Part shown: one piece after another, positions 32,441-45,158 of the stretch
Layout of the letters: each line of letters starts with the position of its first letter
Numbering within the stretch: the stretch's first letter is position 1
Assembly (NCBI GenBank): GCA_038874355.1
Contig: JAVZCO010000001.1
Span: forward strand, 498,159-562,158
Reading direction: 5' to 3'
Length of the DNA stretch: 64,000 nt
Source: Candidatus Pacearchaeota archaeon
GTDB lineage: Archaea > Nanobdellota > Nanobdellia > Pacearchaeales > GW2011-AR1
Notes under the pieces: model-generated
What the model was told of the DNA's origin: nothing
What the model saw: only the letters and a program-made list of their open reading frames with translations
The model's database searches: none
Made by a program: the position numbers and the translations under genes

Positions 32441-32611
32441 ATGAAAGAAAACTGCATTTTGCGCAAGATTGTCAAAGGAGAACTTCCTTGCTATAAAATT
32501 TGGGAAGATGAAAAACATTTAGCTTTTTTTAAAATCTTTCACAATTCTAGGGCCACCACTACAAACAGAATTAAGATAACAACAAGATTTGCACTCTCCA
32601 AATACTCCTGA
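32441..32611 (+). pseudogene. Truncated HIT-family gene (5' fragment)
   Basis: The first 28 codons read as the start of a histidine-triad hydrolase: ILRKIVKGELPCYKIW followed by EDEKHLAFF, matching the usual CIFCKIVKGE...WEDE...AF opening. Homology stops near 32524, where the sequence runs into the 3' end of the convergent radical SAM gene; the frame then continues with unrelated residues to a stop at 32611. The HIT motif itself is missing and the second cysteine of CxxC is lost. This is a scar at the left edge of the island. Confidence 0.75.
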
Positions 32612-33493
32612 GTTATTGCGACATTCATAATTCTTTAACGCATTGTAAGCTTCTAAGAAGGTCCCATACTTCTTTAAATCGTCAATTTTATATATTCTTA
32701 AAGGGAGGCATCTCCAAATAGTTAAATCAGGGGATATATCAAAAAATGGGGGGCAAATAAAAGAAACATCATTCTCTTGTTTTGCAAAGATTTCTAATTG
32801 AGATTCACTGAATGCACAATGAGGGACGCATATATCGCCCCAAGTTTCAATGCCTCTTTTATTTGCTTCTTGTACGATTTCATAAATTCTTTTTCCATAC
32901 TTTCGTAAAGTATTCTGGCTCTTATATCCAAAAAGATTGCCAGAGCTAACTATAGGTTCTGAAAATGACCATCTAAGTTCGAAATGATATTTTTCAGCTA
33001 TATCTAAATGTTCAATACCACTAAAGTTATCAGAATCTATTATTGCACCAATTGAAACAACACCTCCTTTTTGTCTAAGTTGTTCAAAAGTCTCAATGAG
33101 TTCTTTTTTTTGATTAGAGCTATAATGATGCCATCCTAAAAAAGTTATTTCTGTTTCTATAGGGTATTCTATTCTTTCAAATTCTTTTCTAAATTTTCTA
33201 TTCCAAAGCCCGTTTGTACTCAAGCCTATTGAAGTGCCACAATTATAAAATCTTCTTCCAATTTCTAGTGCATGGGGGTGAAGAGTCGGCTCTCCTCCAA
33301 GAAGATTGATTTGTTTTGGAGGTTCTTTTCTTATTCTTTTTTCTAATTCTAAAATCATATCCTCTTGTATAAACATTGGTTTCCGGCATTCAGACATATA
33401 ATCTCTTGCGATGCACCATTTACAATCCAAGTTACAAAAGGATGTTAGGAACAGATTTACAGTTAGATCTTGTAGACTATAACCTTTTATCAT
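32519..33493 (-). CDS. Radical SAM protein with C-terminal SPASM-like cysteines
   Basis: 324 residues. The radical SAM cluster motif is CNLDCKWC (C20, C24, C27), followed by NLLGGEPTLH, which fits the SAM-binding 'GGEP' motif, and a TNG-type strand (IGLSTNGLW). The C-terminal region has multiple cysteines (FICPPF, WRCLPL, YECRNN, GECKSCCYLNSVCSGG) as in SPASM auxiliary Fe-S cluster enzymes, which modify peptides or assist such reactions. It lies 50 bases downstream of the methyltransferase gene on the same strand and ends inside the HIT fragment. Substrate unknown. Confidence 0.88.
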   Translation of the reverse strand: MIKGYSLQDLTVNLFLTSFCNLDCKWCIARDYMSECRKPMFIQEDMILELEKRIRKEPPKQINLLGGEPTLHPHALEIGRRFYNCGTSIGLSTNGLWNRKFRKEFERIEYPIETEITFLGWHHYSSNQKKELIETFEQLRQKGGVVSIGAIIDSDNFSGIEHLDIAEKYHFELRWSFSEPIVSSGNLFGYKSQNTLRKYGKRIYEIVQEANKRGIETWGDICVPHCAFSESQLEIFAKQENDVSFICPPFFDISPDLTIWRCLPLRIYKIDDLKKYGTFLEAYNALKNYECRNNSGVFGECKSCCYLNSVCSGGPRIVKDFKKS

Positions 33494-33543: not shown

Positions 33544-34122
33544 TTAACAATCATTTAACGCAATTATTTTAACTAGAGAATGAACCATATGTTCGTCTTT
33601 TTCTTTAAATTTAAGGTATTTAATTATCTTCCAATCAGAATATATCTCTTTTAGTTGGTTATTTCTAAAATATAATCTTTTTTTATTAAAAGTCGGGTCT
33701 TGTTCAGTAAATGAAATAATTATATTAACTCCTTGTTTTTTTGTCATTTTTTTCATTCTTTTTATAAGTTCTATCCCTTTTTGATAATTTAGGAAGTGAA
33801 ATGTTCCTGTAGAGATTATTATGTCGTATTTTTTTGTTATCTTGAAAAACTCCAAATCGGCGACTTTCGTGTTTATTTTTATTTTTTCCTTTTTTGCTCT
33901 TTCCTTTATTTTTTTTATTGCTGTTCTTGATATATCCACACAAGTAACACAGAATCCTTTTTTTGCAAGATAAAGGGCATTTCCGCCTTCGCCGCAACCT
34001 AAATCCAAAACACTTCCAGATTTTTTCAACTTTAAAATATCTTTTACCAATCCCGAATCTTCTTCGAATTTAAAATTCTTTCTTTTGTATATCTTATCAA
34101 AATAAAATTTATTTGAATGCAT
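33544..34122 (-). CDS. Class I SAM-dependent methyltransferase (TehB/UbiE-like)
   Basis: 192 residues with SAM motif I SVLDLGCGEGGNALYLA, the acidic loop VTCVDIS, and post-motif DIIISTGTFHFL. The fold is complete for a small-molecule methyltransferase. Its first 14 bases overlap the end of the kinase-like gene, so it is translated in the polyamine operon. The substrate cannot be read; a polyamine or peptide amine would suit the context (inference). A truncated relative lies at 38875-39000. Confidence 0.88.
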   Translation of the reverse strand: MHSNKFYFDKIYKRKNFKFEEDSGLVKDILKLKKSGSVLDLGCGEGGNALYLAKKGFCVTCVDISRTAIKKIKERAKKEKIKINTKVADLEFFKITKKYDIIISTGTFHFLNYQKGIELIKRMKKMTKKQGVNIIISFTEQDPTFNKKRLYFRNNQLKEIYSDWKIIKYLKFKEKDEHMVHSLVKIIALNDC

Positions 34123-35209
34123 TTTTCATTATCTCCTTATTTTTTTGAAATTCTTCTATCTCGGAAAGAATTTGATGTTTATTTAATTTAACATCTTTAT
34201 ATTTAAGATATCCTATATTGAATCCTTCAATTAAACTCTGAGCAGAAAAATCAAAAATACAATTCTCAAAATATGCTAAAGATGAATAAACCCCTGTTAT
34301 AAAAAGATTTAAATCATTCTTCTGAAATCTTAAGAAAGATTCTTCATTTCCTTTAAATGAATCTTTTGAATACATAGAATCTAAATCTGTAATTCCTATT
34401 TCTCCATTAGGCATAATAATTTCATTCCCGTACCAAGAATTTCCTATACCTCTTATAAACCCCTTATTATGTAATTTTCTATAGATAAATCCTATCTTTT
34501 TTCCTAAGTTATATAATAGCTTTAATTTTTCATGATGGTCTTTAAGAATTCTTGTAACTTTAATATTTTTAATTAAAAAATAATTTTTTTTCTTGTTAAA
34601 CTGAACTGAGTCTTTTAATTTTGCAAGAATATTTATTATAACTGCCATGCAAAATTCATCTACTCTTAAATCGCTATTAACAAGGTATATTAAAGAACAA
34701 TAAGTTTCTGATGTTCTAAATGGCAATAATACCCTTCTTATTCCAATCGGAATATAAGGACTAACAAATCCTTCTTTGATAATTAAATGGTAATTCTTTA
34801 TTTCCCTCTTAGCATCATTATAATCTAAAGTACCTCTGTGCTCATAAATATTACTTTCTATAATAATCTTCTTTTTAAATAAAATCTCTCTATCGATTAT
34901 GCAATTCTTAATAAAACCTTTGTACTTCGTACCATTCCTTTTAAATTTGTATGTTTCTCCTTCGATTTTTACTAATGCTCCGCCAGTACCACAACTTAAA
35001 CCCAGATACTCTCCTTTTGAATCTTTTATTAAAAAGGGAATATTTTTTAATTTAGGATTATACTCCTCCAATATTTCTGAAGGATAAATTTTTAGTCTAA
35101 TTGGTTTTCTAAATGTAAGAGATAATCTTTTTGTGAACTCATCGTTATTGTTCCAACCACTATGAAATCCAAAAAAACCTTCAGGATATGAAAAATCAAA
35201 CTTTGTCAT
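34109..35209 (-). CDS. Unknown protein with kinase-fold-like features
   Basis: 366 residues. The segment around 255-290, LHNKGFIRGIGNSWYGN followed by NGEIGITDLDS, resembles the catalytic loop and DFG-like strand of aminoglycoside phosphotransferase/protein-kinase-fold proteins, but the usual HGD aspartate is replaced (RGIG). An N-terminal GTGGALVKIEGETYKF could correspond to the nucleotide-binding lobe. Overlaps by 4 bases with speD-like upstream and 14 bases with the methyltransferase downstream, so it is firmly in the operon. Phosphorylation or a lost kinase activity are both possible; the family call is tentative. Confidence 0.55.
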   Translation of the reverse strand: MTKFDFSYPEGFFGFHSGWNNNDEFTKRLSLTFRKPIRLKIYPSEILEEYNPKLKNIPFLIKDSKGEYLGLSCGTGGALVKIEGETYKFKRNGTKYKGFIKNCIIDREILFKKKIIIESNIYEHRGTLDYNDAKREIKNYHLIIKEGFVSPYIPIGIRRVLLPFRTSETYCSLIYLVNSDLRVDEFCMAVIINILAKLKDSVQFNKKKNYFLIKNIKVTRILKDHHEKLKLLYNLGKKIGFIYRKLHNKGFIRGIGNSWYGNEIIMPNGEIGITDLDSMYSKDSFKGNEESFLRFQKNDLNLFITGVYSSLAYFENCIFDFSAQSLIEGFNIGYLKYKDVKLNKHQILSEIEEFQKNKEIMKNAFK

Positions 35210-35553
35210 TTTAATCTAATTGAATATTTTTTAATTTTTAAGCTCTTGCAATCAAAGTTTTTCTTAAGATATTTTATTAATTCTTTTAATTTATGCGGTT
35301 TTGTACATATAGAAGCTTCTATTATGACAATATTATACTCAGGATAAGAGCTATATATAATATGACTTGTAGACAAAAAATAGCAGATATTTATTCCTTG
35401 ATGATTATAATATTTATATGTTCTTCTTATAATTTTAGAATCAAGTAAACTAGAAATAGTATCAAGAATACTGTAAACCTTTTTTCTGTCATCTAAGATA
35501 TCTTTTGTTTTTGTCTTTAAAATAAAAATAAAATTATGTATTTTATTTATCAT
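35206..35553 (-). CDS. speD: SpeD-family pyruvoyl decarboxylase with variant active site
   Basis: 115 residues, the normal size of the bacterial/archaeal S-adenosylmethionine decarboxylase proenzyme. The self-cleavage serine is S63 in STSHIIYSSYPE, where the canonical form is ESHxSxHTYPE; the preceding Glu and the following His are changed. C83 (SIC) fits the catalytic cysteine. Canonical SpeD makes the aminopropyl donor for spermidine; family members with altered sites have been reported to decarboxylate ornithine or arginine. It lies eight bases after the speE-like gene and next to bpsA-like, so a polyamine role is well supported while the exact substrate is open. Confidence 0.8.
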   Translation of the reverse strand: MINKIHNFIFILKTKTKDILDDRKKVYSILDTISSLLDSKIIRRTYKYYNHQGINICYFLSTSHIIYSSYPEYNIVIIEASICTKPHKLKELIKYLKKNFDCKSLKIKKYSIRLK

Positions 35554-35561
35554 TTTGTGTT

Positions 35562-36467
35562 TTATAATTTGGAAAAAAGATATTTATCTCTTTCATGAAT
35601 AACACCCCAGTTTTTATTTAAATTCTCTAAAATATCATTTGAAAATGAACGAAAAATTGAATAAAAAAGCATAGAATTAAGCCATTTTAGATTTATTTTT
35701 AGAGTCTTTATTTTAATTTCTATATCTTTTTCAGAGAATTTGAGGGGGTCTACAATATCAGAAGCTATTAATCTCCCCCAAAAGTCTACATAATGAGGTA
35801 TCCAGATCCTATAAGGTCTAACAATTTTGAATACAGACTTGTAAGTTTGAATTATTCTATAATAAACTTCTCCCGCAGAGTCAGGAGACTCGCAATGAGT
35901 AACAATGGCTGACTTTTCTTTCATAATTCTCTTTAGATTAAGAATAAACTCCTTTGAAAAAATCTTTAGAGCAAAATTTTTAGGGTCAGAAATATCTAAG
36001 ACGATGAGATCATATTTATTATGAGTGTCTTTTACATAGTCAAAACCATCATTAAAATAAAGACGAACTCTTTTATCGTTAAAATATTTTTTAACTTCTG
36101 GGAAGTATTTCCTACAAATATTTACTACATCTTTATCGATTTCTACAAGATCTATTCTTTGAATATAAGGATATTTTATTAATTCCCCTAAAGAAAAACC
36201 ATCCCCTCCGCCAATAACTAACACTTCTTTTATTTTTTCCATAGATAAAACAACAGGGTGTATAAGACTTTCATGAACATAACTATTAAATTTTTCACAA
36301 ATTTGTATCTCATTATCAAGAGTAAGAATCTTTCCAAAAAGGTTAGACTTATATATTTCTATCTTTTGAAATCTAGAGAATTTATGAAAAATTCTTTTAA
36401 CCCTAATTAAATGTTTTATATTTTGAGAATTCCAATTCTTAAACCAGATTAATTTATTTTTTCTCAT
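35562..36467 (-). CDS. speE: Spermidine synthase-like aminopropyltransferase
   Basis: About 301 residues from MRKNKLIWFK (ATG 36467); an ATG 20 codons upstream would overlap the previous gene more deeply and lacks family similarity. Motifs: VLVIGGGDGF (substrate nucleotide loop), LVEIDKDVV, and LIVLDISDP with the catalytic aspartates. These enzymes transfer aminopropyl from decarboxylated SAM to putrescine or similar amines. The C-terminal third (after about 215) is longer than in E. coli SpeE and diverged. It overlaps the bpsA-like gene by 14 bases. Confidence 0.87.
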   Translation of the reverse strand: MRKNKLIWFKNWNSQNIKHLIRVKRIFHKFSRFQKIEIYKSNLFGKILTLDNEIQICEKFNSYVHESLIHPVVLSMEKIKEVLVIGGGDGFSLGELIKYPYIQRIDLVEIDKDVVNICRKYFPEVKKYFNDKRVRLYFNDGFDYVKDTHNKYDLIVLDISDPKNFALKIFSKEFILNLKRIMKEKSAIVTHCESPDSAGEVYYRIIQTYKSVFKIVRPYRIWIPHYVDFWGRLIASDIVDPLKFSEKDIEIKIKTLKINLKWLNSMLFYSIFRSFSNDILENLNKNWGVIHERDKYLFSKL

Positions 36468-37467
36468 AATATTGGTAAAAGTACATTTTCCCCCATTTCT
36501 TTTCTTTTGATCTATCATAAAAATCATTTTTTGGGTATTTAAAATTTTTTGTTATTTTTAATTCAATTATTGTTTCAGGCGATAATGAAACTCCTGGAAG
36601 AAATTCAGAAAAACCAAAACGCTTTAAAAAACTAATAAGTTTTAATTTTGATACATCTTGTTGAAATAAATTTAATAACTCTTTGATAAATCTTTTAATT
36701 AATATTTCCGGGCAATCGTAAGTAACTGCTTTCTTTTCTATTTTATTTATTTTTAATCCGTGCGATTTAATAAAATTAAATAATTTTTTTCTTTCTTTAT
36801 ATGTGAATATAGGAATATCGTCAACTAATTGAATAACGAATTGGCCGCCGAAACCATTTTTTGATAAACAGTTTATTACTCTTGTTAAAAAAGAAATATA
36901 CCCACCAAGACAATGTGAAGAATCAAAAAAGAAATAATCATAAGACTTTAAAAATTTTTTAGGTAAAGGTTCTCTCACATCATAATGAAAGGTGTTAATC
37001 TTATATCTCTTTTTTTTAGAAACCTTCTCAATGTAATTTATAATTCTTGTATCTATCTCTAAAACATCTATTTTTAATTTATTGAAATTTGCAGCTAAAA
37101 AAATACTTAATAGATCATCATCTCCTAAGATTAAGATTTTTTTAATAGAAAATTTGTTTAATGAATCCTTAAAAAGGTCTAGTTTTTTAAACATCGTTCG
37201 TTTGTCTGTATATAGCTGAGAATACTTCAATGTAGGGGAATTAATTTTTCTAAACCTCTCAATTTCTTTTGGGAAAAACCATTTTTTTGAACTAAACTTG
37301 CTTTGAATATCGCAATTATTTAAATAATTTGCAATTTTACAAGGATTTTTTTGATATAGAATCCATAAGTCCATCAGTATGTCCTCAACTTTTGATTCAG
37401 ATCTCATAAAATCCATAAAAGAATATCTTCTTTTGATACTCTCTTCTATTTCTTTTATTCTGTTCAT
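36454..37467 (-). CDS. bpsA: BpsA-like branched-chain polyamine synthase
   Basis: 337 residues: an N-terminal helical part (about 1-90) and a Rossmann-like domain with the BpsA hallmark GDDD (G115-D118, in ILILGDDDLLSIF), then VLEIDTRI and DYFFFDSSHCLGG. BpsA of Thermococcus adds two aminopropyl groups to spermidine to make N4-bis(aminopropyl)spermidine, a branched polyamine typical of thermophiles. It is first in the minus-strand operon with speE-like, speD-like, kinase-like and methyltransferase genes. Whether the product is a free polyamine or a modified conjugate is unknown. Confidence 0.8.
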   Translation of the reverse strand: MNRIKEIEESIKRRYSFMDFMRSESKVEDILMDLWILYQKNPCKIANYLNNCDIQSKFSSKKWFFPKEIERFRKINSPTLKYSQLYTDKRTMFKKLDLFKDSLNKFSIKKILILGDDDLLSIFLAANFNKLKIDVLEIDTRIINYIEKVSKKKRYKINTFHYDVREPLPKKFLKSYDYFFFDSSHCLGGYISFLTRVINCLSKNGFGGQFVIQLVDDIPIFTYKERKKLFNFIKSHGLKINKIEKKAVTYDCPEILIKRFIKELLNLFQQDVSKLKLISFLKRFGFSEFLPGVSLSPETIIELKITKNFKYPKNDFYDRSKEKKWGKMYFYQYYEKK

Positions 37468-38742: not shown

Positions 38743-38757
38743 AACCTTAGATATTGT

Positions 38758-38822
38758 CTTGCTTCGCAAGAAATATTATACAAAACTCAAACTCAACTTT
38801 GAGCTTTTGGGCATTCGCCCAA
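38758..38822. other. Three consecutive short hairpins
   Basis: Perfect inverted repeats in a row: CTTGC-TTC-GCAAG (38758-38770), CTCAA-CT-TTGAG (38792-38803) and TTGGGC-ATTC-GCCCAA (38807-38822). The 38743-39103 gap between the GNAT and the small peptide otherwise holds only the methyltransferase remnant and the promoter copy. The DNA here is notably less AT-rich. Recombination-site-like or REP-like nature is possible; unproven. Confidence 0.5.
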
Positions 38823-39029: not shown

Positions 39030-39103
39030 ATTTGTGAAGAAGAAAGATTTTTAAATTTTTATTTTTTTAAATTATAAAAGTAAAATATAGGAGGAAAAAC
39101 AAA

Positions 39104-39208
39104 ATGTCAAAATGCAAAGCGATTTTAGATGTAAAAAAAATTGAGAGAATTAGTTTACAAAAGAAAAATCAAAAATCTTCTAATAATGTTAAAAAATCTA
39201 ATAAATAA
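39104..39208 (+). CDS. Small basic peptide, candidate RiPP precursor
   Basis: A 34-residue ORF: starts MSKCKAILDVKKIERI, continues with a Ser-Leu-Gln-Lys-Lys stretch and ends in a Lys/Asn/Ser-rich tail (NNVKKSNK). It has the strongest ribosome binding site in the region, GGAGG at 39090-39094, nine bases before the ATG. The next gene, 26 bases downstream, is a radical SAM/SPASM enzyme with a PqqD-like domain, the domain that binds RiPP leader peptides. The first half could be a helical leader and the tail the core. It has one Cys and no aromatic residue. No known precursor family recognised. Confidence 0.6.
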   Translation: MSKCKAILDVKKIERISLQKKNQKSSNNVKKSNK

Positions 39209-39234
39209 AATCCTTTTTTATTTTATTTTTTAAG

Positions 39235-40524
39235 ATGATAGAAAAACTACATTATTATAGTATACCCCATTTAATTCATATTGAAACAACTTATGGATGC
39301 AATCAGGGATGTATTTTTTGTTATAATCCTAATAGAAATTACTCTATTGATTATAAAAAATTAGACAAAATTATAGATAGTGTTTATAAATCAAAAATAC
39401 CCCATGTTTATCTTATTGGAGGGGAACCTTCACTTTTAAGTGTTAAAAAATTAAATGAATATATAGATAAACTTTCAAAATATTCTTCAGTTACAATTGT
39501 AACTAATGGTTTTAAGTATATGAAAGGTCTCTCAAAAAATCTCGCTTGCTTAGGCATCCCAATTCATGGAGATAAAAAAACCCATGAATATTTAACTAAT
39601 AATCCTAAAAGTTATAATAAAATAATTAGTAATATAAAAAAATATATTGAAGAAGGTTTTGATGTAAGAATTATCCCTGTTTTGACATCTATTAATTATA
39701 ATCAGATGTATAATATAATTAAACTCTCTACTAAATTAGGAGCGGAAAGTGTTTTTGTAGATAGATTTGAGCCAGGAGGAATTGGTAGCAAATTAACAAA
39801 AAAACTTTTACCTTCAACCAAACAGTTTAAAATTGCTTTAGATCAAATGATAAAAGCAAAAAAAGATTTCGGAATTCCTCTTGGTTTTGGTACAGCAATT
39901 CCTTATTGTTTAGACAAAAGATTAATTGATGAAAATATTTATGCAAATTGCGGAGCAGGGATAACTTTTGGAGCTATAAATCCAAATGGCGATTTTAGAA
40001 TTTGTAATCAATCTTTAAAGGTTTATGGAAATGTTTTAAAAGAACCATTAGAAAAAATTTGGAATAAAAAAGAATTAGACGAATTTAGAAATTTAAGTTG
40101 GGTTAATGAGCCTTGTAAAAGTTGTAATTTACTCTACGAATGTTTAGGAGGTTGTAAGGTTGATTCTAATTTCCCTGGAGAATTTTGTATTGATTATTCT
40201 GTAAGATGTTGTAAAGAACCTCTTAATAAAATTAAAATTAAAACAAAAAAACTAATATTTAAAGTACCAACAAACATGAGAAGATTTAAGAAAAATAGAT
40301 ATTTAAAATTAAATGATTTTCATAAAGAAATTTATATTGTTACAAGGTATCAAACAGTAGAGATTGATGAATCTACTAAAAGAATAGTAAAGTTTATTTT
40401 AAAGAATGAAGATTATATTTTAGAGAAAGAAATTTTAGATAAATTTTCAAATGATTTTGAAAAAAAAGATTTAAGAGAGCTACTTTCAAAATTTATATAT
40501 ATCGGAGCAATAGATGAAATATAA
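39235..40524 (+). CDS. Radical SAM/SPASM peptide maturase with C-terminal PqqD-like RRE
   Basis: 429 residues. Radical SAM motif CNQGCIFC (C22, C26, C29), LIGGEPSLL, and a TNG strand. The SPASM-type auxiliary cluster region has YANCGAG, FRICNQ, EPCKSCNLLYECLGGC and FCIDYSVRCC. Residues about 340-429 look like a PqqD/RiPP recognition element: a strand pair, then VEIDESTKRIVKFIL, a helix-turn-helix and LLSKFIYIGAI. This architecture is typical of enzymes that crosslink or epimerise ribosomal peptides. It overlaps the next radical SAM gene by 11 bases. Confidence 0.9.
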   Translation: MIEKLHYYSIPHLIHIETTYGCNQGCIFCYNPNRNYSIDYKKLDKIIDSVYKSKIPHVYLIGGEPSLLSVKKLNEYIDKLSKYSSVTIVTNGFKYMKGLSKNLACLGIPIHGDKKTHEYLTNNPKSYNKIISNIKKYIEEGFDVRIIPVLTSINYNQMYNIIKLSTKLGAESVFVDRFEPGGIGSKLTKKLLPSTKQFKIALDQMIKAKKDFGIPLGFGTAIPYCLDKRLIDENIYANCGAGITFGAINPNGDFRICNQSLKVYGNVLKEPLEKIWNKKELDEFRNLSWVNEPCKSCNLLYECLGGCKVDSNFPGEFCIDYSVRCCKEPLNKIKIKTKKLIFKVPTNMRRFKKNRYLKLNDFHKEIYIVTRYQTVEIDESTKRIVKFILKNEDYILEKEILDKFSNDFEKKDLRELLSKFIYIGAIDEI

Positions 40525-41413
40525 AAATTTTATTCAAAGATGTGATTGGGAAATAACAACAAAGTGTAATCTTAATTGTAAACATTGTTTAATTAATTAT
40601 AAGCCGAAAAAAGAACTTTCTACTAAAGAGTGTTTTTTAGTGATAGATCTATTAAAAAAATTGGGGTGCAAGCAGATAAATTTTACTGGTGGCGAAGCTC
40701 TTATCAAAAAAAATTTTTTAAAAATTTTAAAGTACTCTTATGAAAGAGGGATAGTAAATAACCTTTTTACAAATGGAACACAGATTAATAGTAAAAATAT
40801 TATTTTTCTTAAAAAATACATTAATTATATTGGAGTAAGTATTGAAGGAATGAAAGAAGAAAATGATTTTATTAGGGGAAAAAACTCTTACAACAAAGTA
40901 AAAAGAACATTAGTATTATTAAATAAAGAAAAAATTCCTTTTGGAATTTATATGACTTTAAATAAAAAGAACATATTAAATCTCAAAAAAATTCTTAAAA
41001 AAATTGTTAAATATAATCCTAAAAATATTAGTTTAAACGAACTCGTTTTTAGGGGAAAAGCTAAAAAAAATAAAAAAAAAGTATATGTAAAAATAAATAA
41101 TAAAGAAATCTTAAGAATTTTAAAAGAAATTTTTCCTGACGAAAGATTTAGAATTGAGAGGGGTTGTAATATTAATCCAAAAAATATTTTTCTAACCTCT
41201 GAAGGAAAGTTTTATTTCTGTACGGAAATAAGGCAATGTAAAAAAACAAAATTTTTAGGAAGTTTTTTTCCTCCCAATTTTCATAAATTCAAAAAATTCT
41301 CAAATAATTTTTCTAAAAAGAATTTGCCAAAAAATTGCCCTTATTTCTCTTATATTTCAAAAAATATAAAATTAAATCTTTTAACAGGTAAAAAATGCCC
41401 ATTTATAAAATAA
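40514..41413 (+). CDS. Second radical SAM enzyme of the peptide cluster
   Basis: 299 residues with CNLNCKHC (C18, C22, C25), NFTGGEALI, LFTNGTQ and a VSIEG strand, the usual order for MoaA/PqqE-like radical SAM proteins. C-terminal cysteines (RGCNIN, YFCTEI, NCPYFS, KKCPFIK) suggest at least one extra Fe-S site, in a pattern different from the first enzyme. It is very lysine-rich. It overlaps both neighbours, so the four genes form a tight operon. Confidence 0.88.
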   Translation: MKYKNFIQRCDWEITTKCNLNCKHCLINYKPKKELSTKECFLVIDLLKKLGCKQINFTGGEALIKKNFLKILKYSYERGIVNNLFTNGTQINSKNIIFLKKYINYIGVSIEGMKEENDFIRGKNSYNKVKRTLVLLNKEKIPFGIYMTLNKKNILNLKKILKKIVKYNPKNISLNELVFRGKAKKNKKKVYVKINNKEILRILKEIFPDERFRIERGCNINPKNIFLTSEGKFYFCTEIRQCKKTKFLGSFFPPNFHKFKKFSNNFSKKNLPKNCPYFSYISKNIKLNLLTGKKCPFIK

Positions 41414-41958
41414 ATATAAAAAATATTTTTCCAGGAATTTCGAAAGTTTGTAAAAATTGTAATATTTGTTGTAGAACTTATGGTTGGCTTTTAGAAGAGG
41501 AGGCAAAGAAATTTTATAAAAGAGGGTATCCAATAATAAATTTAAATAATTCTATTTTTTGTATAGATTCATTTAAACGGGATAAAAAAGGAAATTTAAT
41601 TTTGAATAAAATTCCTCGTTGCCGATTTTATAAAAAAAAGAAGTGTTTAATTAATAAAAACAAACCTCTTGATTGTAAACTTTTTCCTATTAAAGTCAGA
41701 TTCAATGAAGATGATTGTTTTTTAGGTTTAAGTCTTGGTTGTAAATATATATCTAATCTAAGTGAGAAAGAAAAAAATAAACTCTATAAGAGAGTAAAAA
41801 ATTTTATAGAACATATGCCAAAAAAAGATTTAGATAAATATCTTAATTTAATGTATAATGTTAACTTAATATCCCAACCTAAAAAGTTTTGGATGAAAAA
41901 ATTAATAACTTTTAAAAAAGAAGGAAATTCTTGGAAATTAATATCTTTTCATGACTAA
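41395..41958 (+). CDS. YkgJ-family zinc/iron-chelating cysteine-cluster protein
   Basis: 187 residues. The cluster CKNCNICCR (C19, C22, C25, C26), then RCRFY, KKCLI and LDCKLFPI matches the YkgJ (CxxCxxCC) family, which is thought to bind Fe-S or zinc. Such proteins occur beside radical SAM enzymes in several peptide pathways. It is the last gene of the operon and ends 21 bases inside the convergent Bud23-like gene. Exact role unknown. Confidence 0.82.
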   Translation: MPIYKINIKNIFPGISKVCKNCNICCRTYGWLLEEEAKKFYKRGYPIINLNNSIFCIDSFKRDKKGNLILNKIPRCRFYKKKKCLINKNKPLDCKLFPIKVRFNEDDCFLGLSLGCKYISNLSEKEKNKLYKRVKNFIEHMPKKDLDKYLNLMYNVNLISQPKKFWMKKLITFKKEGNSWKLISFHD

Positions 41959-42633
41959 ATAAATTGTTCTTTTTTTTGGTATATCTGGCCAATCAATAAT
42001 TATTTCTCCATAAAAACCATTATTAGTAAAAATTCTAGCAATCTCTTTTAATTCTTTTTCACTTTTTGGATAAAATTGAATAATAAGAGGCCCTCCCTCA
42101 TTTAAAACAGAATAAATTCCTTGAGCTACTTTTTTTATGTCATTTTTGTCTTTGATCCACTGAAGAGCGGAAACAGAAACAACTCCATCAAATTTACGAC
42201 CATTAAATAATTCTTTAATATCTCTCATATCCCCAACATAAGCTTCAAATCCTTTTTCTTTTGCTTTTTCTATCATTTTTGGAATTAAATCCATACATAC
42301 CACATTATATCCAGCAGAGCGATAAACCTCCGCGGTATATCCTGGCCCTGAACCAATATCTAATAAAGATTTTCCTGGTTCTAATTCTAAAAGTTCTAAA
42401 ACTCTATACGCAATTTTTTCTTGCGCTCTTCTCATACCTCCAGAACGTGCATATTTTTCTACTTCTTCATCACTATAATAAAGAAAGGGATCTCCTAAAT
42501 ATTCTTCAGGTCTATCATTTTTTACAAACCATCCTTTATCTTTCTTTGAGCTTACTTTTTTTCTTTGATTTCTGTTAAATTCCCTTTCCATTTCTTTAAA
42601 TAAATAATTTTCTAAATTTTTATTCTTTTTCAT
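41938..42633 (-). CDS. Bud23-like rRNA (guanine-N7) methyltransferase
   Basis: 231 residues. The order DPFLYYSDEEVEKYARSGG, RVLELLELEPGKSLLDIGSGPG, SVSALQWI and PLIIQFYPKSEKE with a final YLVMKR follows Bud23/WBSCR22, which methylates a conserved guanine of small-subunit rRNA. A 50-residue basic extension precedes the usual start. No Trm112-like partner is visible here. It is probably a core gene that forms the right border of the island; its promoter and start codon are the second copy of the 89-bp repeat. Confidence 0.87.
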   Translation of the reverse strand: MKKNKNLENYLFKEMEREFNRNQRKKVSSKKDKGWFVKNDRPEEYLGDPFLYYSDEEVEKYARSGGMRRAQEKIAYRVLELLELEPGKSLLDIGSGPGYTAEVYRSAGYNVVCMDLIPKMIEKAKEKGFEAYVGDMRDIKELFNGRKFDGVVSVSALQWIKDKNDIKKVAQGIYSVLNEGGPLIIQFYPKSEKELKEIARIFTNNGFYGEIIIDWPDIPKKRTIYLVMKRY

Positions 42634-44723: not shown

Positions 44724-45158
44724 TTAATTGAAAATTCTATTTTCTAATTCTTTTACTTCTTTACTTAAATCTAAATCTAATTCAGAACAAACTCTTTTGG
44801 TTATATTAGAAATGTGTGTATGAAGAGCATTCCTATCAATAAATTTTTTGCTAATGTTATTATGTATTAGCTCATGGATTAATACTACAAGAATATATTT
44901 TTCATTTTCTTCATATCTTAATGTTAGTGGGCTTGATATTGGCTTTGTTTTTTCTGTTAAATAAATAGGAATATATTTTTTCCTCCAAGGTTCATTAAAT
45001 TTCTCAATAAAAATTAATATTTTTTTTATATATTTATTGTATAAATCTTCAAATTTTGAAAATTTTATTTTTAATTCTTCTAGTTTAATGTGATTAAATT
45101 CTTTGTTAAATAGAGCATTATATGGGTATGAATATATTAATTCAGTTTTGGGTATCAT
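44724..45158 (-). CDS. Small zincin-like protein (HExxH)
   Basis: 144 residues, soluble, with HELIHNN (HExxH) in its last third (about 96-102), preceded by a YILVVLI strand, as in minimal zinc metalloproteases. The third ligand is not obvious; H113 or H115 (ALHTHIS) are candidates. No signal peptide. It stands alone between the thrS remnant and the tRNA pair. Confidence 0.65.
   Translation of the reverse strand: MIPKTELIYSYPYNALFNKEFNHIKLEELKIKFSKFEDLYNKYIKKILIFIEKFNEPWRKKYIPIYLTEKTKPISSPLTLRYEENEKYILVVLIHELIHNNISKKFIDRNALHTHISNITKRVCSELDLDLSKEVKELENRIFN

Follow-up and report, generated by a model that had tools for sequence, protein, structure and literature searches.

A conserved short ORF precedes two radical SAM enzymes and a CxxCxxCC protein in a rare, probably RiPP-like operon of DPANN archaea

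Introduction

A gene for a 34-residue peptide lies directly ahead of a radical SAM/SPASM enzyme (rSAM1), a second radical SAM enzyme (rSAM2) and a small cysteine-cluster protein in the genome of a Pacearchaeota archaeon (593 kb, 96% complete), which raises the question of whether the peptide is the substrate of these enzymes, as in the ribosomally made, radical-modified peptides (RiPPs). The operon was analysed within a stretch of 64,000 nucleotides, hereafter the window, and compared with related loci in other DPANN genomes.

Organization of the operon and its surroundings

The four genes are all encoded on the forward strand (window ORFs) in the order peptide ORF, rSAM1, rSAM2 and Cys-cluster protein, with a 26-base gap between the end of the peptide ORF and the start of rSAM1, an 11-base overlap between rSAM1 and rSAM2, and a 19-base overlap between rSAM2 and the Cys-cluster gene (Table 1). 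The sequence, its ORFs and Pfam searches bear out a preliminary description of this DNA as to the gene positions and their overlaps, the GGAGG site and the gene families. In the corresponding locus of a second genome, JAHJSH010000017.1, TTATATAA is situated approximately 34-41 bases 5' of the peptide ATG, and GAGG occupies the position of the Shine-Dalgarno-like site.

Table 1. Features of the operon and of the homologous peptide ORF (window coordinates unless another locus is given)
Feature	Position	Strand	Description	Basis
Possible TATA box	39072..39079	+	TTATAAAA, ~25-32 bases 5' of the peptide ATG	Sequence reading, inferred
Shine-Dalgarno-like site	39090..39094	+	GGAGG	Sequence
Presumed precursor peptide gene	39104..39208	+	Operon gene 1; 34 aa, MSKCKAILDVKKIERISLQKKNQKSSNNVKKSNK	
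Conserved N-terminal segment	39104..39157	+	Residues 1-18, including Cys4; presumed leader and RRE-binding strand	
Variable polar tail	39158..39205	+	Residues 19-34; presumed core, or unconstrained tail	
rSAM1	39235..40524	+	Radical SAM/SPASM enzyme with C-terminal RRE-like domain, 429 aa	Pfam/NCBIfam, PDB sequence match, Foldseek
rSAM1 C-terminal 89 residues	40255..40521	+	RRE-like winged helix (predicted)	AlphaFold2
rSAM2	40514..41413	+	Second radical SAM enzyme, 299 aa	Pfam, NCBIfam
A6 run	41390..41395	+	rSAM2/Cys-cluster junction	Frame arithmetic on sequence; G148 fusion
Cys-cluster protein	41395..41958	+	CxxCxxCC (YkgJ / PF03692-like), 187 aa	Sub-threshold PF03692, motif
Homologous peptide ORF	L002:1386-1487		MSKCTAVLDAKKVESITLEDSSESLNADTESLD (G148, JAHJSH010000017.1)	

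The non-coding stretch 5' of the operon contains three short hairpins (window 38757-38822; folding z = -2.66 for the region). Further upstream, a polyamine-type gene cluster on the opposite strand (window 33544-37467) encodes a branched-chain polyamine synthase-like protein, a spermidine synthase, an AdoMet decarboxylase, an unknown 366-aa protein and a TehB-like methyltransferase, after which comes a further radical SAM gene (32519-33493). On the 3' side of the operon, both genomes harbour related, convergent genes for SAM-dependent methyltransferases (window 41938-42633 and L031:9635-10297, both on the minus strand), with a histone-deacetylase-family gene lying between the operon and the methyltransferase gene in the second genome. 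The relatedness of these downstream genes points to common descent of the locus or to its co-transfer.

Conservation and coding signal of the short ORF

Sequence comparison indicates that the short ORF is conserved beyond chance, a homologue being present in the same position, directly before rSAM1, in the only other genome with the operon, the Nanoarchaeota MAG JAHJSH010000017.1 (G148). Within residues 1-18, 12 of the 18 positions are identical and the other changes are mostly conservative (consensus MSKCxAxLDxKKxExIxL); local alignment of the peptide pair scored 69, which none of 20,000 shuffles reached (maximum 46). As there are two intact loci, this conservation rests on one comparison (n = 2). 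Lack of conservation of the ORF upstream of homologous enzymes had been named beforehand as evidence against a precursor; residues 1-18 proved to be conserved in JAHJSH010000017.1. In both genomes the peptide is encoded once, at the operon, and no further precursor copies with the same leader were found in either.

The tails of the two peptides have no alignable similarity and no residue pattern in common, with net charges of +6 (window) and -6 (G148). Both are polar and devoid of aromatic residues and cysteine, leaving Cys4 as the sole cysteine of the peptide. That the Lys/Asn/Ser tail constitutes the core can be no more than presumed, the G148 tail being wholly unlike it. NCBIfam precursor models matched neither peptide.

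It is very improbable that the ORF is untranslated and that the two loci resemble each other because of a conserved 5' element in DNA or RNA. The conserved stretch spans only 57 bases, and random placement of the 17 nucleotide differences found in the first 19 codons preserves the protein equally well with P=0.05 when identity alone is scored; however, the BLOSUM score gives P=0.0014, the differences are concentrated at third positions (4/3/10 over the codon positions), the frame is open to its end in both genomes despite the fully diverged tail, and the Shine-Dalgarno site and ATG are preserved.

The SPASM enzyme and its C-terminal domain

rSAM1 matched the Pfam Radical_SAM (5.7e-16) and SPASM (3.1e-9) models, both above their cut-offs, carries a radical SAM motif of the CX3CX2C type (CNQGCIFC) and is 71% identical to the rSAM1 of G148. 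Its best PDB sequence match was PqqE (9.6e-9), and the top PDB match of its predicted model, which is of moderate confidence (pLDDT 64), was SuiB (Foldseek, 1.6e-13); SuiB, anSME, PqqE, CteB and SkfB were near the top of the Foldseek matches, which were nearly all peptide or protein maturases. Scores against the NCBIfam equivalogs for PQQ, mycofactocin, SCIFF and streptide maturation were all far below cut-off. The initial assignment of rSAM1 to the radical SAM/SPASM peptide maturases is supported by the Pfam matches, the structural matches to maturases and the Cys-rich ORFs found beside its nearest relatives.

When modelled in isolation, the C-terminal 89 residues of rSAM1 formed four short strands and then three helices (AlphaFold2, low confidence, pLDDT 58.5); RREs are defined by the order of strands followed by three helices (PMC12710340). 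Foldseek searches with this model retrieved TbiB1, McbB, CteB and PqqD among other winged helices, at E-values of 0.08-0.85, none of which is significant, with a TM-score of approximately 0.52-0.57 for TbiB1. The Pfam PqqD model (PF05402) matched neither whole rSAM1 nor the isolated C-terminus, and its best score in the whole source genome, 14 bits, was obtained elsewhere than in rSAM1. A profile built from nine such C-termini matched a DPANN PqqD-like protein (probability 71%, E 3.7e-5), and its comparison with true PqqD was not significant. It is reasonable to regard the C-terminus as RRE-like. Of the PqqD-like leader-binding domain proposed earlier, the predicted RRE order of secondary structure is retained, but a significant match to PqqD was obtained by none of Pfam, Foldseek and profile comparison.

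The second radical SAM enzyme and the Cys-cluster protein

rSAM2 matched the Pfam Radical_SAM model (1.5e-19) with no Pfam SPASM match, and contains the conserved extra cysteines C218, C236, C275 and C295. The Cys-cluster protein has an intact CKNCNICC motif and nine conserved cysteines. In G148 the two are encoded as one fused protein of 474 aa (L002:2790-4211), the first part of which is 49% identical to rSAM2 and the fused domain of which is 44% identical to the Cys-cluster protein; this fusion argues for joint action. In the window, re-reading one A of the A6 run would join the two frames as in the G148 fusion, and the junction may reflect coupling, frameshifting or an indel.

The name YkgJ, under which the Cys-cluster protein was introduced, is apt as regards the CxxCxxCC motif, which occurs in both genomes, and tentative as regards family membership: the PF03692 match in the window is below threshold (E=0.0017, 19.5 bits against a cut-off of 23), and for the G148 fused protein none was listed at E<=0.05. 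In FliB, a CX4CX3CC cysteine cluster holds a [4Fe-4S] cluster in an enzyme that methylates lysines of a protein (PMC8598068); cysteine clusters of the PF03692 kind can thus be [4Fe-4S] clusters and can even be catalytic.

DPANN relatives and distribution of the operon

A tree with DPANN relatives placed rSAM1 in a group of 12 (support 99/98), within which its operon forms a long branch. All ten other DPANN members of this group adjoin a small Cys-rich ORF and nine of the ten adjoin an HExxH metallopeptidase gene; most relatives of rSAM1 also carry a C-terminal RRE-like tail. The rSAM1-related SPASM loci with Cys-rich ORFs were L004, L006, L007, L010, L011, L013, L014, L032, L033 and L034, and apparently they belong to a widespread and varied DPANN RiPP-like group, mostly with an HExxH peptidase. 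Related SPASM enzymes beside short Cys-rich precursor-like ORFs were also seen at L017, L020, L022 and L053; examples of such ORFs are CYSTGDCYSTGGCYSG, ACKSCQCNCRLC, CDSGDSCDGDGGCDGGSCDGGD and NCAWGRCVWGQC, and L032 and L033 have a common conserved precursor (42% identical).

Compared with these kin, the window operon lacks the Cys-rich core and the peptidase and has rSAM2 and the Cys-cluster protein in addition. Neither a peptidase nor a transporter is encoded within it, and the HExxH peptidase of the relatives was not found elsewhere in the source genome, the search of G148 giving a weak match with a stop. A small HELIH-motif protein is encoded nearby (window 44724-45158, minus strand); 13 of 165 family genomes have one, and the window copy shares 48% identity with that located close to an unrelated RiPP-like locus in L013. 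This protein was considered as the missing peptidase and rejected, since homologues occur independently of the operon and the matches listed for G148 included none.

Searches of the whole family (181 genomes), a class sample (378), a phylum sample (371), genome contigs and viral contigs retrieved two intact operons, those of the window and JAHJSH010000017.1, and no further ones. The Cys-cluster domain was absent from the viral contigs, and the fused rSAM2/Cys-cluster protein gave only partial radical-SAM matches against plasmids. A decayed 48-aa piece of the Cys-cluster gene was present in a third genome, G137 (L049:1501-1716; G137:C52:19647-19790), with approximately 84% nucleotide identity to the window copy over 93 bases. 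The operon is rare and, in at least one lineage, seems to have decayed. The G137 remnant adjoins an ORF with a tyrosine recombinase C-terminal signature; a repeat shared between the window upstream region and the flank of the remnant was not significant (30/1000 shuffles).

Proposed pathway and alternatives

With a probability of roughly 0.7, we interpret the operon as a rare DPANN radical-SAM RiPP-like pathway, in which the RRE-like domain would bind the conserved N-terminal segment whilst both radical SAM enzymes act on the peptide. The 34-aa peptide would be made first, and its conserved segment KAILDVKKIERISL (residues ~5-18) would add as a strand to the C-terminal RRE-like domain of rSAM1, which would in this way guide the peptide into the SPASM active site. 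rSAM2 and the CxxCxxCC protein, acting as one unit, would make a second change on the peptide, with the Cys-cluster domain probably holding an Fe-S cluster and either feeding electrons or joining in catalysis. On this reading, too, the modified position may be Cys4 instead of the tail. RRE binding, the role of the peptide as substrate and the order of these steps are what we infer from the following: the short ORF is conserved in position, with coding-type substitutions, and occurs once per genome; rSAM1 has a SPASM domain, maturase matches and well-supported kinship (99/98) to enzymes beside Cys-rich ORFs; the strand and helix order of its C-terminus is that by which RREs are defined (PMC12710340); and rSAM2 and the Cys-cluster protein are fused in G148, clusters like that of FliB being able to hold [4Fe-4S] (PMC8598068). 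Against this reading stand the number of loci (two), the low-confidence C-terminal model, the non-significant PqqD profile and Foldseek comparisons, the commonness of winged helices in regulators, the tails without a common residue pattern, and an operon without peptidase or transporter.

An alternative, which we consider unlikely though worth weighing, is that modification takes place within the conserved N-terminal segment (at Cys4 or in LDxKKxE) and that the tail is a polar spacer drifting with genome composition, which would be closer to the maturation of a cofactor or small protein than to a natural product with a variable core. Residues 1-18 are indeed conserved and the tail is not, and the latter follows the composition of the operon: rSAM2 and the Cys-cluster protein are unusually basic in the window (net charges +47 and +26) and near neutral in G148 (-3 and 0). 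Charge complementarity between tail and enzymes was examined and rejected, because the tail follows operon composition in each genome, the charges of tail and enzymes shifting the same way, opposite to expectation. Since the enzyme charges drift likewise, the tail may be a polar stretch free of constraint, with the conserved Cys4 as a possible target; all ten sampled relatives have Cys-rich ORFs, and Cys4 is the only cysteine remaining here. However, leaders and cores normally show just this pattern of a constant N-terminal and a variable C-terminal part, the conserved segment resembles an RRE-binding strand, and in most leader-guided pathways it is the C-terminal part that is modified. We think it improbable, to a greater degree, that the peptide is a small accessory or regulatory protein and that the two radical SAM enzymes have a different protein or a small molecule as substrate. 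Heme, cofactor and protein maturases also occur among SPASM enzymes; the best NCBIfam models for rSAM1, all far below threshold, are of the NirJ/NirJ2/PqqE/mycofactocin types; and the operon has neither transporter nor peptidase. The place of the short ORF in the operon, the RRE-like domain and the kin beside Cys-rich precursor-like ORFs count against this reading.

Characterized radical SAM RiPP maturases act mostly on cysteine or aromatic residues. Because the tail has no aromatic, Cys, Gly or Pro residues, thioether or aromatic cross-links are not possible within it, and we tentatively raise the possibility, itself rather doubtful, of a RiPP-like family in which a radical SAM enzyme with a fused CxxCxxCC Fe-S domain would install a new peptide modification, for instance a methylation or a change to the backbone or to Ser/Asn/Lys side chains.

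Relationship to known systems

The kind of system is familiar, very probably one in which a peptide is made and then altered by two radical enzymes. Streptide biosynthesis (SuiB/SuiA) likewise has a short precursor and a SPASM radical SAM enzyme, which in that system carries an RRE. The RRE of SuiB is N-terminal, whereas the RRE-like domain of rSAM1 is C-terminal; SuiB makes a Lys-Trp link, whereas the window peptide has no Trp; and the window operon adds a second radical SAM enzyme and the Cys-cluster protein. The PQQ and mycofactocin systems (PqqA/D/E, MftA/B/C) also comprise a short peptide and a radical SAM/SPASM enzyme, together with a PqqD-type helper domain to which the RRE-like C-terminus of rSAM1 may correspond, but rSAM1 falls far short of the respective NCBIfam models (65.8 bits for a cut-off of 381, 68.6 for one of 265), the window peptide has no aromatic residue, and no other PQQ or mycofactocin enzymes are encoded in the operon. 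The DPANN ranthipeptide/sactipeptide-type loci (L004, L006, L007, L010, L011, L013, L032-L034) belong to the same clade as rSAM1, but have Cys-rich ORFs and HExxH peptidases, whereas the window operon has neither; a Cys-rich core is absent here, the tail being Cys-free in both genomes. The Cys-cluster protein has a cysteine cluster similar to those of FliB and PF03692 proteins, but differs in its sub-threshold Pfam match and in that its gene overlaps that of a radical SAM enzyme, or in G148 is fused to it. FliB methylates lysines, but the G148 tail, unlike that of the window peptide, has none, so that both loci are unlikely to have methylation of tail lysines as their shared reaction.

Radical SAM-dependent RiPP clusters have already been predicted across DPANN in a survey of archaea, and the products of such archaeal clusters are largely uncharacterized (PMC12144867). 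The earlier claim of an undescribed archaeal RiPP pathway must be narrowed to this extent, but neither the operon type nor a link between a YkgJ-type protein and a radical SAM RiPP was found in the literature searched. The operon belongs to a larger group of DPANN loci that are RiPP-like and Cys-rich and have peptidases of their own, and its presumed leader, which is conserved, its unrelated Cys-free and aromatic-free tails, and its radical SAM/Cys-cluster fusion, which was likewise not found in the literature searched, point to an enzyme chemistry that is directly testable.
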